Of a stretch of 49,795 bases of DNA, positions 12,218 through 17,840 are shown piece after piece. Below the pieces are notes generated by a model. It made no database searches and had not been told where the DNA came from. It worked only from the letters and a program-made list of their open reading frames with translations. The position numbers and the translations under genes were made by a program. The DNA lies in NCBI GenBank assembly GCA_015065425.1, contig SVQH01000021.1, positions 1-49,795 of the forward strand, read 5' to 3'. How positions within the stretch are numbered: the stretch's first letter is position 1; every line of letters starts with the position of its first letter. Source of the stretch: Oscillospiraceae bacterium. Lineage in GTDB: Bacteria; Bacillota; Clostridia; Oscillospirales; Acutalibacteraceae.

Positions 12218-12295
12218 ACTTTTGATAAATGTTGTCATTTTGTATAAATGGTATTTTATGTATATTATATTCAATGATTTGAAAGGATGAAAAAT

Positions 12296-13381
12296 ATGTC
12301 AAACCGTCTTTTTCAGAGCGTAATTCACCAGATGAAGGATGCAGTAGGAAGGGTCATAGGTGTCATTGATGAAAGCGGAACCGTAGTTGCATGTACTGAA
12401 CTTACAAAAATCGGCGATGTTGTTAACATCGGTATTGCTGAGGTGTTTTCTTCCAACACAACCGTAAGTATCAGCGGTAATACTTATAAGGCTTTCGGTT
12501 CACCCATGCAGCCTGAGTATACTGTTTTTGTGGAAGGAAACGATGCTCTTGCAGAAAAGTATGTTTCCATTCTTGCAGTTTCTCTTTCAAGCATAAAGCA
12601 GTATTATGATGAAAAATATGACAGGGGTAATTTTATTAAAAATGTAATGCTGGATAATATTCTCCCCGGTGATATTTATCTTAAGGCACGTGAGCTTCAT
12701 TTCAATAATGATTCTGTCCGTGTTGTATTTCTTGTCCGTTTTGCAGAAATTTGCGAGTCTTCAATGTTTGATACCATTCAGTCTCTTTTCCCCGACAAAA
12801 ACAAGGATTTTGTTATAAGTGTAAATGAAACTGATGTTGCGATTATCAAGGATATTGCTGCTGCTACCGACTCTAAGGACCTTGAAAAACTTGCCCGTTC
12901 CGTTATTGATGCTCTCGGCTCGGATGCAGCTTCTCAGGCTGTTGTCGGCATAGGCACGGCGGTTAAGAGTATCAAAGATCTTGCAAAGTCATTCAAGGAA
13001 GCTCAGGTAGCACTTGAAGTGGGTAAAGTATTCGATACGGAAAAGGTTATCATAAGCTGTGAAAATCTCGGTATCGCAAGACTTATTTATCAGCTTCCCA
13101 CAACTCTTTGTGATATGTTCCTTAAGGAAGTTTTCAAGGTAGGCTCCATTGATAACCTTGATCATGAAACTCTTTTTACCATTCAGAAATTCTTTGAAAA
13201 TAATCTGAATGTTTCTGAAACATCAAGAAAGCTTTTTGTACATAGAAATACTCTTGTTTACAGACTTGAAAAAATCAGAAAGCTTACAGGTCTTGACCTC
13301 AGAGAATTTGATGATGCCATTGTGTTTAAGGTTGCACTTATGGTCAAGAAATATCTTGATTCATCACCTATCAAGTTCTGA
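12296..13381 (+). CDS. CdaR/PucR-type helix-turn-helix regulator
   Basis: A 361-residue protein whose last 60 residues are a PucR-type HTH (LNVSETSRKLFVHRNTLVYR), as in the sugar-diacid regulator CdaR and PucR. The middle resembles the GGDEF-like CdaR/PucR regulatory domain. The N-terminal part (RVIGVIDESGTVVACTEL) may be a sensory domain; its ligand is unknown. GAAAGGA lies 8 bases before ATG 12296. The alternative ATG at 12287 overlaps that site. It has its own promoter. ftsE lies 53 bases downstream with no terminator between, so read-through into the ftsEX operon is possible. Confidence 0.8.
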   Translation: MSNRLFQSVIHQMKDAVGRVIGVIDESGTVVACTELTKIGDVVNIGIAEVFSSNTTVSISGNTYKAFGSPMQPEYTVFVEGNDALAEKYVSILAVSLSSIKQYYDEKYDRGNFIKNVMLDNILPGDIYLKARELHFNNDSVRVVFLVRFAEICESSMFDTIQSLFPDKNKDFVISVNETDVAIIKDIAAATDSKDLEKLARSVIDALGSDAASQAVVGIGTAVKSIKDLAKSFKEAQVALEVGKVFDTEKVIISCENLGIARLIYQLPTTLCDMFLKEVFKVGSIDNLDHETLFTIQKFFENNLNVSETSRKLFVHRNTLVYRLEKIRKLTGLDLREFDDAIVFKVALMVKKYLDSSPIKF

Positions 13382-13434
13382 TTATAGACTTTTTTAAGTT
13401 TTGATTGATAAATTATATAAAAAAGGATTTCAAT

Positions 13435-14286
13435 ATGATAGATTTTTCAAATGTGTCAAAGACATATCCTAACGGCACAAAAGCACTCAATAATTGCAAT
13501 ATTCATATAGACCGCGGAGAATTTGTTTTTATTGTAGGTTCCTCCGGTGCAGGTAAGAGCACGTTTCTTAAAATGATAATGAGAGAAGAAGTGCCTTCTG
13601 AAGGAAAGATTGTTGTTGACGGTGTTGAACTCAATAAACTCAAAGCAAGTAAAATTCCTTACTACCGCAGAAAACTGGGAATTGTTTTTCAGGACTTCCG
13701 TCTTATCCCGAACAGAACGGTTTATGATAATGTTGCTTTTGCCATGCATGTTATAGGTGCAAAAAACAAGGATATTTCCCGCCGTGTTGCTTATGCCCTC
13801 AGCCTTGTAGGTCTCAGTGTAAAAGCAAAGTGTTATCCCCATGAGCTTTCAGGCGGAGAACAGCAGCGTGTTGCTCTTGCAAGAGCTCTTGTAAATCATG
13901 CTGATATTATTGTTGCCGATGAGCCCACCGGAAATATCGACCCCGAAATGTCCCGTGATATTGTCAATCTTCTCAATCACATCAATGCAAATAATAATAC
14001 GACAGTTATTATGGTTACTCATGAAGTCGATTTGGTAAAGCAGTACAATAAGCGTATAATTACAATTAAAAACGGTACTGTGATAAGTGATACTGCTCAT
14101 CCCGAAATTGTTGTTGAGGATATACCCGAGAGAGTGGAAACAGCTCCGACTGCATATTATGAAGCACCTCTCGAGGATGATGATATTGAAAGATTTATTC
14201 AGAATTACGGTAAGAACACCGAGGAAAGTGTAAACACCGAGGAAAGTGCTGCATCCGAAAAGTCTGAATCATCTGACAGTATCTAA
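13435..14286 (+). CDS. ftsE: Cell-division ATP-binding protein FtsE
   Basis: A 283-residue ABC ATPase that with FtsX controls peptidoglycan hydrolases at the septum or sidewall. Motifs are Walker A GSSGAGKSTF, signature LSGGEQQRVA, and Walker B IIVADEPTGNID with the D-loop following. Typical FtsE is about 228 residues. This one carries an extra acidic tail of about 50 residues containing the repeat NTEESVNTEESAASEKSES. AAAGGA is 7 bases before ATG 13435. An upstream in-frame start at 13405 lacks such a site and would precede the conserved MIDFSNVSKTYPNG beginning. It is followed by ftsX. Confidence 0.95.
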   Translation: MIDFSNVSKTYPNGTKALNNCNIHIDRGEFVFIVGSSGAGKSTFLKMIMREEVPSEGKIVVDGVELNKLKASKIPYYRRKLGIVFQDFRLIPNRTVYDNVAFAMHVIGAKNKDISRRVAYALSLVGLSVKAKCYPHELSGGEQQRVALARALVNHADIIVADEPTGNIDPEMSRDIVNLLNHINANNNTTVIMVTHEVDLVKQYNKRIITIKNGTVISDTAHPEIVVEDIPERVETAPTAYYEAPLEDDDIERFIQNYGKNTEESVNTEESAASEKSESSDSI

Positions 14287-14309: not shown

Positions 14310-15230
14310 ATGAAAAACAGGAATATCAGATACCTTACCCGTGAAGGTATAAAAAATATCGGAATCAACCGACTTATGTCGGTCGCTTCCATTGCAGTTC
14401 TGATGTCTTGCCTTGTTATTATAGGCTTCGCATTATTGCTGTTTTTTAACGTAGACTCTTTATTAAGACATATAGAAGATCAGAATGTTGTTATGGCATT
14501 TTGTGAAGTAGGTGCAGATGACGGAGTTGTTGAGCTTACCGAATCTCTTATAGGTGAACTCGATAATATTGAGTCATGTGAATACATTTCAAAGCAGGAG
14601 GCTTATGATGCAGTAGTTTCCTCTCTCGGGGATGATGCCGATCTTCTTAAAAATGCATCTTCTGATTTTCTGCCTGACGGTTTTCGTATCATTATTGATG
14701 ATATGTCACGTTTCTCGGAAACTGTTGCGGCGATTAATGCCATTCAGTCTATAGACAGTGTTCAACAGAATTCAGATCTTGCTGAAAAATTTCAGGAGAT
14801 GAGAACTGCTGTCACATATATAAGCATCGGAATTATCATAGTGCTCTTTATCGTTTCGATGTTTATTATTGCAAATACTATAAGAATTACCATGTTCTCA
14901 AGAAAGCTTGAGATAAGTATTATGAAGGCTGTTGGTGCAACAAACTGGTTTATCCGTTGGCCTTTCCTGATTGAAGGTGTCTTCCTCGGGCTTATATCGG
15001 CAGTGTTGTCTTTCTTTGTACTTGCTCTGCTTTATAATCTTTCAGGTGGGGCATTCGCGTCTATTTTTGAAATTCTCGGTAATACTATAGTTAACTTCTG
15101 GGAATATGCTCTTCCCATATTCGGCGGATTTGTTCTTATAAGCGTATTCACAGGCAGTGTCGGAAGTCTTATTTCCATGCGTAAATATCTTAAGGAACAG
15201 GGGAGTGTAGAACTTGATGACCATCACTAA
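14310..15230 (+). CDS. ftsX: Cell-division protein FtsX
   Basis: A 306-residue membrane partner of FtsE. One membrane helix near residues 23-48 precedes an outside domain (about 50-165). That is followed by three more helices (about 175-197, 225-250 and 268-290), the standard four-helix permease topology. The cytoplasmic coupling segment FSRKLEISIMKAVGATNWFI is conserved. The stop lies 14 bases inside the M23 hydrolase gene, so the transmembrane signalling protein and its presumed effector are translationally coupled. Confidence 0.95.
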   Translation: MKNRNIRYLTREGIKNIGINRLMSVASIAVLMSCLVIIGFALLLFFNVDSLLRHIEDQNVVMAFCEVGADDGVVELTESLIGELDNIESCEYISKQEAYDAVVSSLGDDADLLKNASSDFLPDGFRIIIDDMSRFSETVAAINAIQSIDSVQQNSDLAEKFQEMRTAVTYISIGIIIVLFIVSMFIIANTIRITMFSRKLEISIMKAVGATNWFIRWPFLIEGVFLGLISAVLSFFVLALLYNLSGGAFASIFEILGNTIVNFWEYALPIFGGFVLISVFTGSVGSLISMRKYLKEQGSVELDDHH

Positions 15231-16557
15231 TATCGTTGAACGCTCAAAAAAGCTTCTTTCTCTTTGCCTGTGCCTTCTGCTTGTATATGTCGGTACGGTT
15301 GAGATATATGCAGTAACGGAAAGTGAGCAGCAGAAGATTGATGAATATAAAAAACAGCAGGCTGAGCTTCAGGAGAAAATTGATGCAGCTCAGGTTGAAA
15401 TTGATAAATTAAAAGAAAATATTGCCGATAAAGAAGAATATGCAGGAACTCTTGCCGTTCAGATTGAAAATTATCAGGCACAGATAGATGTTCTCAATGT
15501 CAGCATTGATGAACTTGAATCCCAAAAGGCGGTAATTCAGGAAAAAATCGATACTCTCAATGATGAAATATCAGCTATTGAAGCAGATATAGAAGAAAAT
15601 GCCGCAGAAATCAAACGAACAGAAGAAGAGATTGCTCATATTTATGAAGAATTTCAGGACAGGCTTCGTGAAGTTTATGTAAACGGAAAAACCTCCGATC
15701 TTGAACTTTTGCTTGACCTTGATAAGAGTGAAGATTTTTCTACATATCTCATCATAATGGAACTGTCACAGCGTCTTGCAAAGCGTGATGAGGATATTGT
15801 CAATACACTTAATAATGATATTACAAAGCTTGATATGCTCAATGCTCAGTATGAAACAATGATTGCCGAAATTGAAGTAAAAAAAGCTGAACATCAGAGT
15901 AAGGTTGATGAACTTGATGAAAAAGAACAAGAAATAGTTGATGCAAGAAGTAAGCTTGAATCTTCTCAGCAGGAACTTGTAACATTGCAGGAAGAAGCAT
16001 ATCTGTATATCAAACAGCTTAATGCTGAAAGTGCAACTTATCAGAAGCTTGTAGAGAGCTATGAAGCTGATATCAAGGCATTTGAGGATAAGATAGATAC
16101 AATCATAAACGGTGCTTCAAAGGGAGACGGAAATGTAAATTCTGTTCCCGGCGGATTTATCTGGCCCTTGCAGTACAGTGATGTTTATGTTTCATCCTCA
16201 TACGGATACAGATATGACCCGATTTCCGGTGTGTATAAGCTTCACGGCGGAACTGACACCTGTTGCTGGAGTGGCACTTACGGTAAAGCTGTCCGTGCAT
16301 CAGCCCCGGGTACGGTTATTATTTCTACATATCATTCATCCTACGGTTATTACGTAGGTATTGATCACGGCAACGGTATTGTAACTATCTATGCACACAA
16401 CAGTGTTCTTAATGTATCTGTCGGTCAGTCTGTTAAGCAGGGTGATATTGTTGCTTATGCAGGCTCAACGGGATATTCCACAGGTGCCCACTGTCATTTT
16501 GAAGTTCGCGTTAACGGAACCCGTGTAAATCCGCAGGGATATGCTTCATTGCCCTAA
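15217..16557 (+). CDS. Coiled-coil M23 murein hydrolase (FtsEX effector)
   Basis: A 446-residue secreted peptidoglycan hydrolase. It has an N-terminal signal or membrane segment (about 12-30) and a long coiled coil (about 36-295). The C-terminal LytM/M23 domain (about 320-440) has the zinc ligands HGGTD, YAH and HCH all present, so it should be an active endopeptidase, unlike E. coli EnvC. Architecture and position match EnvC/PcsB-type proteins driven by FtsEX. ATG 15217 is used. A TTG one codon upstream has better spacing from GGGGAG (8 versus 11 bases) and cannot be excluded. Confidence 0.92.
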   Translation: MTITNIVERSKKLLSLCLCLLLVYVGTVEIYAVTESEQQKIDEYKKQQAELQEKIDAAQVEIDKLKENIADKEEYAGTLAVQIENYQAQIDVLNVSIDELESQKAVIQEKIDTLNDEISAIEADIEENAAEIKRTEEEIAHIYEEFQDRLREVYVNGKTSDLELLLDLDKSEDFSTYLIIMELSQRLAKRDEDIVNTLNNDITKLDMLNAQYETMIAEIEVKKAEHQSKVDELDEKEQEIVDARSKLESSQQELVTLQEEAYLYIKQLNAESATYQKLVESYEADIKAFEDKIDTIINGASKGDGNVNSVPGGFIWPLQYSDVYVSSSYGYRYDPISGVYKLHGGTDTCCWSGTYGKAVRASAPGTVIISTYHSSYGYYVGIDHGNGIVTIYAHNSVLNVSVGQSVKQGDIVAYAGSTGYSTGAHCHFEVRVNGTRVNPQGYASLP

Positions 16558-16576: not shown

Positions 16577-17794
16577 ATGAGTAAAAAAATACCAATCGGA
16601 ATAACTGTTGCACTGCTTGTTATTGCAATAGTTGCATCATCAGCAGCGACATTTTTTACTGTGATTCATCGCTATAATGAACTTCTTGTCGATCTTCCTC
16701 AGAAATCTGAACAGTATATCAGACTTTCTGATGTTGATGAGCTTGTCAGAAGGGAATATTTCGGAAGAGTGGATTCTGAAAAAATAGATGAAAGCCTCGC
16801 AAGAGGTTATCTCAGCGGACTCGGTGACAGCTATTGTTATTATATAGCTCCTGATGAATATGAGAATTATACCAATCTCATTAAGGGAAAACTTCCCGGT
16901 GTCGGTATTACTGCATATTTTGATATGGATACGTCACTCCTTCTGATAAGTGATGTTGATAAAGGTTCTCCTGCAGAAATTGCAGGGATTTCCAAAGACA
17001 TGTATATAACCGCAGTCAACGGAAAAGAAGTAACCATTGAAGAGCATGAAGAGCTTTTGTCGCTGATGAGTGATAAATATGAAGGTGAAGTCAGGATAAC
17101 TTATACCGATTTACCTGAAATTGATGAAACTGATCTGAAAGAGGTAAAACTTTCTTGCGGGTATATTGATGTCTCTTGTGATTACAGTCATGATGGTAAT
17201 ATCGGATATATAAGAATTTCATCTTTTTACGAGAATACCGTGGATGTTTTCAGAAGTGCTGTAAGTTATATGCAGGAAAATACTGTTACGTCGGTAATTC
17301 TTGATCTGAGAAACAGTTCAGGTGTTGATTTGGATGTCGCGGCAGAAATAATAGATGTAATCGTTCCTGTCGGAAACGAGGGTACAGGTGCCATTTTTAC
17401 TGCACAGAATGCAGACGGAGAAATTGTGAAACAAGTTTCTTCAGATGCATCTTCTCTCAACATGTCTTTTGTAGTGCTTGTAAATGACCGTACAGAGTGT
17501 GCTGCAGAGCTTGTTGCCTGTGACCTCAGAGATTTTGGTAAGGCAGTTCTTTTTGGAGAGCCTACTTCAGGACACGGTACTCTTCAGCAGATTTTCACTC
17601 TTGAAGACGGAGGAGCTGTTACTCTTACGGTTGCTGAAATAAAACCTTATATCAGTGAAAGTTTTGATGAAAAGGGAGTAAGTCCCGATGTTGAAATATT
17701 GACAACAGAGGCATTCAAGAACCGTATAGGTCAGATGGACCTTGAAGATGATGAGCAATATCAACGTGCATATTCTTATCTTTCAGGGAAATAA
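16577..17794 (+). CDS. S41-family (CtpA/CtpB-like) protease homologue with Cys/His in the catalytic positions
   Basis: A 405-residue C-terminal-processing-protease homologue with an N-terminal membrane anchor (about 7-30), a PDZ domain (about 105-175) and an S41 domain (about 200-380). In active family members the core is a Ser (pattern SASE) and a Lys 25 residues later (TFGKG). Here the aligned positions are Cys308 (ECAAE) and His333 (SGHGTLQ), while the assisting Gln337 is kept. It could be a Cys-His protease or an inactive scaffold. GGAGAG precedes the start. Bacillus carries ctpB just after ftsEX, so the order is conserved. Confidence 0.88.
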   Translation: MSKKIPIGITVALLVIAIVASSAATFFTVIHRYNELLVDLPQKSEQYIRLSDVDELVRREYFGRVDSEKIDESLARGYLSGLGDSYCYYIAPDEYENYTNLIKGKLPGVGITAYFDMDTSLLLISDVDKGSPAEIAGISKDMYITAVNGKEVTIEEHEELLSLMSDKYEGEVRITYTDLPEIDETDLKEVKLSCGYIDVSCDYSHDGNIGYIRISSFYENTVDVFRSAVSYMQENTVTSVILDLRNSSGVDLDVAAEIIDVIVPVGNEGTGAIFTAQNADGEIVKQVSSDASSLNMSFVVLVNDRTECAAELVACDLRDFGKAVLFGEPTSGHGTLQQIFTLEDGGAVTLTVAEIKPYISESFDEKGVSPDVEILTTEAFKNRIGQMDLEDDEQYQRAYSYLSGK

Positions 17795-17807: not shown

Positions 17808-17840
17808 AAAAGGGAGATGCGATATGGCACCTCCCTTTTT
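17808..17840 (+). terminator. Terminator of the ftsEX operon
   Basis: AAAAGGGAG and CTCCCTTTTT form a stem followed by T residues, 13 bases after the S41 gene. It may also serve the convergent comEA-like gene. Confidence 0.75.

Follow-up and report, generated by a model that had tools for sequence, protein, structure and literature searches.

Why would an operon for cell-wall hydrolysis keep a peptidase homologue in which both catalytic residues have been replaced? The question is raised by a gene at 16577-17794 (plus strand) of a 49,795-nucleotide stretch of DNA from an Oscillospiraceae bacterium (contig SVQH01000021.1 of assembly GCA_015065425.1; hereafter, in its full length, the window), which lies behind ftsE, ftsX and an M23 hydrolase gene and encodes a 405-residue protein of peptidase family S41. 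The open reading frame is intact, a broken frame being ruled out, and Pfam PF03572 (Peptidase_S41) covers residues 208-374 (102 bits for the whole protein; cut-off 24), which places the protein in the S41 family and fold. Judged from its sequence, it is one of a large set of pseudoproteases encoded in ftsEX operons. The explanation we favour, at a probability of roughly 0.6, is that a catalytically dead S41 protein has been retained to serve the FtsEX-M23 hydrolase complex as a cofactor that crosses the membrane once and has no proteolytic activity, with Cys308 and His333, the residues at the two catalytic positions, being products of drift.

The catalytic pair

In a phmmer alignment with Pseudomonas aeruginosa CtpA (entry 7rqh, the S302A mutant), Cys308 (TGT; 17498-17500) stands opposite the mutated catalytic Ser (Ala in that entry), and His333 (CAC; 17573-17575), 25 residues beyond, stands opposite the catalytic Lys. 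The alignment thus bears out what a sequence-only reading of the window had proposed, namely that Cys and His replace Ser and Lys while the 25-residue spacing and Gln337 (17585-17587) are retained. A different Ser/Lys pair filling the site was also considered and is unsupported by the alignment.

The N-x-G-G loop near the active site of these enzymes has an oxyanion role. N, G and G occupy positions 247, 249 and 250 in 102 of 106 Ser/Lys rows, and the window protein has S, G and V there, within the S-S-G-V of residues 247-250 (17315-17326). It carries the PDZ domain of active S41A serine peptidases (residues 104-199; 16886-17173) and lacks their catalytic Ser, their catalytic Lys and their N-x-G-G loop; with TIGR00225 (prc, C-terminal processing peptidase) it scores 169.9 bits, below the curated cut-off of 218.6. 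The prediction of a protein without S41 enzyme activity has good support.

The sequence-only reading had gone further and proposed that the two residues form a replacement Cys-His dyad, so that a cysteine peptidase might process the neighbouring hydrolase. To its credit, Cys and His have suitable chemistry, neither the spacing nor Gln337 has changed, the structural model is confident, and position 308 is Ser, Cys and Ser in the three closest relatives. The pair as a whole, however, varies freely among close relatives, which had been named beforehand as an outcome that would refute the dyad, and the proposal is therefore unsupported. Those three relatives read S/N (57% identical), C/R (51%) and S/Y (50%) at 308/333. 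Matches were obtained in 19 of 26 genomes of the genus, and the 17 proteins readable at both positions show eight pair types: C/H (the window), S/N, C/R and S/Y once each, G/E and G/N four times each, G/V three times and G/H twice. Lys333 occurs in none of the 17, and the 13 proteins beyond the window and its three closest relatives all have Gly308, with E, H, N or V at 333.

The same holds in the main set of 162 distinct proteins, gathered from the genus, the family and a search of named genomes (in which a single-protein query gave no match and an alignment query was then used). It comprises 65 Ser/Lys and 97 non-Ser/Lys proteins, 88 of the latter with Gly308, and a clade keeping Cys/His was sought among the 162 without success, the window protein alone having that pair. 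With order-level loci added, His333 is found in 9 of 111 non-Ser/Lys rows, alongside Cys308 only in the window and alongside Gly or Ala in the other eight. The argument that plain loss would not yield exactly Cys and His also failed. Members of the window's subclade encode the two positions by TGT/CAC, AGT/AAT, TGT/CGC and TCT/TAT, and the window's TGT and CAC are one or two base changes away from those of its relatives (AGT, TCT, GGT; AAT, TAT, CGC), so that the changes at 308 and 333 amount to short mutational steps. Given also that the loop has become S-x-G-V, a working dyad is very improbable, and Cys308/His333 most likely reflects drift in an already dead site.

Two other relatives depart from Ser/Lys in ways of their own. 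One (L248, 1033-2304 of its locus, minus strand; family f26) has a C/K pair with an N-S-L loop, that is, Cys-Lys and not Cys-His. The other (L225, 1483-2709) has an L/K pair while the other three rows of its four-row clade are Ser/Lys, perhaps through recent loss or a sequence error.

Spread of the non-Ser/Lys state

A class-wide search, considered at the best 30 loci of the 136 genomes with a match, yielded 28 new loci, all of them Ser/Lys and 26 of them outside the order; the two remaining loci were the window and another member of its family. By this comparison, Ser/Lys is the more widespread state at that place in the operon. A quick tree of 213 rows, built with the two catalytic columns removed, holds seven changes between Ser/Lys and non-Ser/Lys, six of them forced by starred branches, and a quick tree of the family alone holds four, three of them forced, both trees being without bootstraps. 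Where outgroups were included, 97 non-Ser/Lys rows fell into a single clade at low support (23 in the Shimodaira-Hasegawa-like approximate likelihood ratio test). Repeated loss of the Ser/Lys dyad is shown by these sequence comparisons, and within the window's family the dyad may have been lost either once or several times. The window lies among non-Ser/Lys rows, and in the 16-row clade around it the 12 rows outside its own four-member group with Ser or Cys at 308 all have Gly308, so that the window's Cys probably arose from an already dead site.

The non-Ser/Lys rows also share a structural mark in part. Of the eight alignment columns 264-271, five to eight are filled in 51 of the main set's 97 non-Ser/Lys rows (in 40 of them, every column), while all 106 Ser/Lys rows fill two or three and none has the insertion, which in the window protein lies at about residues 265-269 (17369-17383) and is absent from the Ser/Lys rows examined.

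Two observations concern individual loci of this survey. The S41 proteins of L168, L183 and L187-L191 are non-Ser/Lys and without a PDZ domain, the profile match lying on either side of the PDZ region. A locus filed under an Alistipes record name (L063) grouped with Ruminococcus rows, and the label is therefore probably wrong.

A shift of constraint within the protein

To the question whether such genes are still maintained, substitution rates give a first answer. The ratio of nonsynonymous to synonymous substitution rates (dN/dS) was 0.057, 0.061, 0.099 and 0.105 in four close non-Ser/Lys pairs and ranged from 0.027 to 0.204 in 20 partly overlapping Ser/Lys pairs. The pairs come from the wider set, the window protein's nearest relative, at 57% identity, being too distant for a dN/dS of its own. 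This comparison shows the non-Ser/Lys genes of the set, as far as their codons tell, to be under purifying selection.

The constraint lies elsewhere than in Ser/Lys proteins. By column entropy, the 25 most relaxed columns of non-Ser/Lys proteins include 333 (ranking first), 307, 249, 247, 337, 334 and 250, and 11 of the 20 most tightened columns fall in residues 4-12 and 40-63. Divergence of FtsX was then taken as a clock, using 105 FtsX proteins, of which 52 belong to Ser/Lys loci. In the bins with 30-45% identity between FtsX proteins, the identity of the peptidase core was 0.44-0.46 in Ser/Lys pairs versus 0.32-0.35 in non-Ser/Lys pairs, that of the PDZ domain was about level (0.31-0.32 versus 0.29-0.30), and that of residues 1-48 was reversed, at 0.20-0.21 versus 0.32-0.35. 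The comparison shows, as gauged by sequence identity and entropy, that the peptidase core has lost constraint and that the N-terminal helix, with its membrane segment and juxtamembrane part, has gained it. An AlphaFold2 model of the window protein (mean predicted local distance difference test score 90.5) has a single long helix at residues 7-60 (16595-16756), comprising a membrane segment, as read from the sequence, and a juxtamembrane part; this helix falls inside the stretch with raised constraint in non-Ser/Lys rows.

These figures also bear on the idea of a PDZ-led sequestration, in which the dead protease would bind C-termini through its PDZ domain and groove and keep a substrate, for instance the M23 protein, bound but uncut, in the manner of a substrate trap. 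Among the most relaxed columns are those of the catalytic pocket. The PDZ region is down to four residues or fewer in seven of the 97 non-Ser/Lys proteins, as against none of the tree's 64 Ser/Lys proteins, and in two further non-Ser/Lys proteins it is partial. We regard such a role as unlikely, though less so than a Cys-His peptidase.

An independent second case comes from family f10 of the same order, where two S41 genes lie in tandem in all 11 fetched loci (L241-L246, L255, L261-L264), the first non-Ser/Lys and the second Ser/Lys. The pairs of the first copy are D/K in three loci, D/I in two, and D/V, G/V, G/I, D/M, G/N and G/A in one each; ftsE and ftsX lie upstream in ten loci and an M23 match in nine, one contig beginning at the S41 genes. 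Since each genome supplies both copies, divergence time is controlled. Over 55 genome pairs, identity across the first 45 aligned positions averaged 0.59 for the pseudo copy versus 0.25 for the active one, while core identity was 0.58 versus 0.59. The N-terminus was the better conserved in the pseudo copy in all 55 pairs, including all of five disjoint pairs, and the core in 25 of the 55.

Tandem pseudo-active pairs could suggest that the dead protein regulates an active S41 protease through mixed oligomers. Yet a search of the window genome, which is 95% complete, gave one S41 match and no second, and of the 93 among 150 family genomes with a PF03572 match 87 have exactly one, which makes this the least probable explanation of all.

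In the reading we favour, the N-terminal helix would dock on FtsX within the membrane, in the manner of SweD of Bacillus subtilis, and the PDZ-S41 body, outside the membrane, would sit close to the M23 protein, positioning or restraining it without cutting. A motif of [RK]43 with [YF]47 in this N-terminal region occurs in 78 of 94 non-Ser/Lys proteins of the main set, but also in 25 of 59 scorable Ser/Lys rows; it is thus not unique to the dead proteins and is therefore read as an older function that outlived catalysis. A broader scheme, which we hold tentatively and at somewhat less than even odds, is that the S41 proteins encoded next to ftsEX do two jobs that can be separated: they cut, and they couple to FtsX, without proteolysis, through the N-terminal membrane helix. 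The two would be split in f10 between a pseudoprotease with a conserved helix and a protease with a drifting N-terminus; the window's clade would keep only the second job, some of its relatives would then have lost the PDZ domain, and eight loci would have lost an M23 zinc ligand as well, leaving two dead enzymes.

Operon context and known systems

Linkage to ftsEX and a hydrolase, as expected of an FtsEX cofactor, is found at the window on the plus strand throughout. The genes are ftsE, for the ATPase of the complex (13405-14286; NCBIfam TIGR02673, 281 bits, cut-off 264.85), ftsX, for its membrane subunit (14310-15230; PF18075 and PF02687 above cut-off; NF038347 FtsX_Gpos, 237 bits, cut-off 225), and the M23 cell-wall hydrolase gene (15214-16557; PF01551, 95.8 bits), whose product has the zinc-ligand residues H, D, H and H and an N-terminal part resembling coiled-coil proteins. 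These profile matches confirm the neighbours named in the sequence-only reading, and of its two suggestions for the S41 protein a scaffold for the hydrolase gains support from the present results, but processing of the hydrolase by a Cys-His dyad does not, the pair not being conserved. FtsE, FtsX and M23 matches also lie upstream in 67 of 80 named loci with an S41 gene; of the other 13, 12 have less than 2.3 kb of upstream sequence. The thirteenth (L093), a Ser/Lys gene with 6 kb upstream and no FtsE, FtsX or M23 match, is the sole such case among the 80.

The gene is frequently missing from relatives. No S41 match was obtained in 57 of the 150 family genomes (47 of 115 among those at least 90% complete) or in 7 of the 26 genus genomes, while FtsX was found in 137 of the 150. 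Twenty S41-less loci (15 from the family, five from the genus) were fetched; 18 keep ftsE, ftsX and M23 in order, and a search of the 20 for an S41 remnant behind the M23 gene gave no S41 profile match. Such losses would suit a decaying leftover that is heading for deletion and has no present function. Against this stand the dN/dS of non-Ser/Lys pairs, as low as that of Ser/Lys pairs (a measure that covers the wider set and not the window's own protein), an N-terminus more conserved than in Ser/Lys proteins, and the dead copy that persists beside an active one in every fetched f10 locus. We consider decay improbable, more so than PDZ-led sequestration.

Several observations also weigh against the cofactor explanation itself. 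A gene missing from relatives that keep ftsEX is not essential there. The N-terminal gap shrinks at 65-80% FtsX identity (0.65 versus 0.69), and all pairwise comparisons share genomes and hence are not independent. Remains of the catalytic site persist in part of the non-Ser/Lys proteins, with N-G-G at 247/249/250 retained in 29 of 97, a G/K pair in 8 of 97 and Lys kept in three of the 11 f10 pseudo copies (the D/K loci). The partial overlap of the [RK]43/[YF]47 motif with Ser/Lys proteins and the near-absence of the PDZ region from seven dead ones count likewise. Finally, the f10 N-terminus is unlike that of the window's family in detail: the motif in that form occurs in none of the seven aligned pseudo copies, nor does [RK]43.

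The partner hydrolase varies too. With zinc-ligand columns set on the window M23 protein as the reference row, the first zinc-ligand His is kept in 78 of 78 Ser/Lys loci versus 83 of 91 non-Ser/Lys loci. Eight loci (L032-L037, L040, L041) have an M23 protein without it upstream of the S41 gene (Thr in seven, Asn in one), and both operon enzymes look dead there.

Some features of these loci stand apart from the argument. At the window, a gene for a PucR/CdaR-type regulator (12287-13381) lies immediately upstream of ftsE, a position filled by similar-sized unidentified open reading frames in many S41-less loci. Right behind the S41 stop codon lies an inverted repeat (17808-17839, no strand assigned), which a terminator consensus scan marked as terminator-like on the minus strand only, in a scan that found five sites versus 4.0 expected from shuffles; its use as a plus-strand terminator is a guess. 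Among S41-less loci, spoIIGA follows M23 in two genus members (L193, L195), the former also with a sigma-factor gene, and three consecutive M23 matches follow ftsX in two others (L200, L206). In one genus member, the ftsX match (G007:C32:56625-57539) has an in-frame TAA inside.

FtsEX controls cell-wall hydrolases of Gram-positive bacteria together with needed cofactors, and detailed knowledge of this comes from few models only. In ftsEX operons of Clostridia, S41 pseudoproteases have arisen repeatedly, with the helix constrained and the active site lost, which points to a non-proteolytic S41 role in the FtsEX complex. Since the two roles appear divided into two genes in the f10 pairs, these make that role directly testable. 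In the open-licence papers searched, neither a tandem dead-active S41 pair nor a pseudoprotease of this family encoded with ftsEX was found described.

Among known systems, the C-terminal processing proteases CtpA and CtpB share the S41 family, but in the window protein their Ser, Lys and N-x-G-G loop are all replaced. In the CtpA-LbcA system of P. aeruginosa, an S41 protease acts on M23 cell-wall hydrolases, and inactive CtpA with LbcA still captures the M23 protein MepM (PMC6050968), a precedent for a dead S41 protein holding an M23 hydrolase. There the S41 protein degrades its partner, whereas that of the window is without the Ser/Lys machinery. SweD and SweC, cofactors of FtsEX-CwlO in B. 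subtilis, are likewise non-enzymatic membrane proteins tied to FtsEX, a likeness that concerns the proposed role only, and for SweD two-hybrid data suggest binding to FtsX through its membrane segment (PMC6705773). Unlike those of the window protein, their domains are cytoplasmic, neither has the S41 fold, and no homology is claimed. IRBP (RBP3), a vertebrate retinoid carrier in the eye, is built of S41 domains and differs in having no link to FtsEX. EnvC is likewise a non-catalytic regulator in an FtsEX complex, but of M23 and not S41 type, with a degenerate M23 domain. Non-proteolytic S41 folds, as in IRBP, and non-catalytic regulators in the FtsEX complex, as in EnvC, are both kinds already known.
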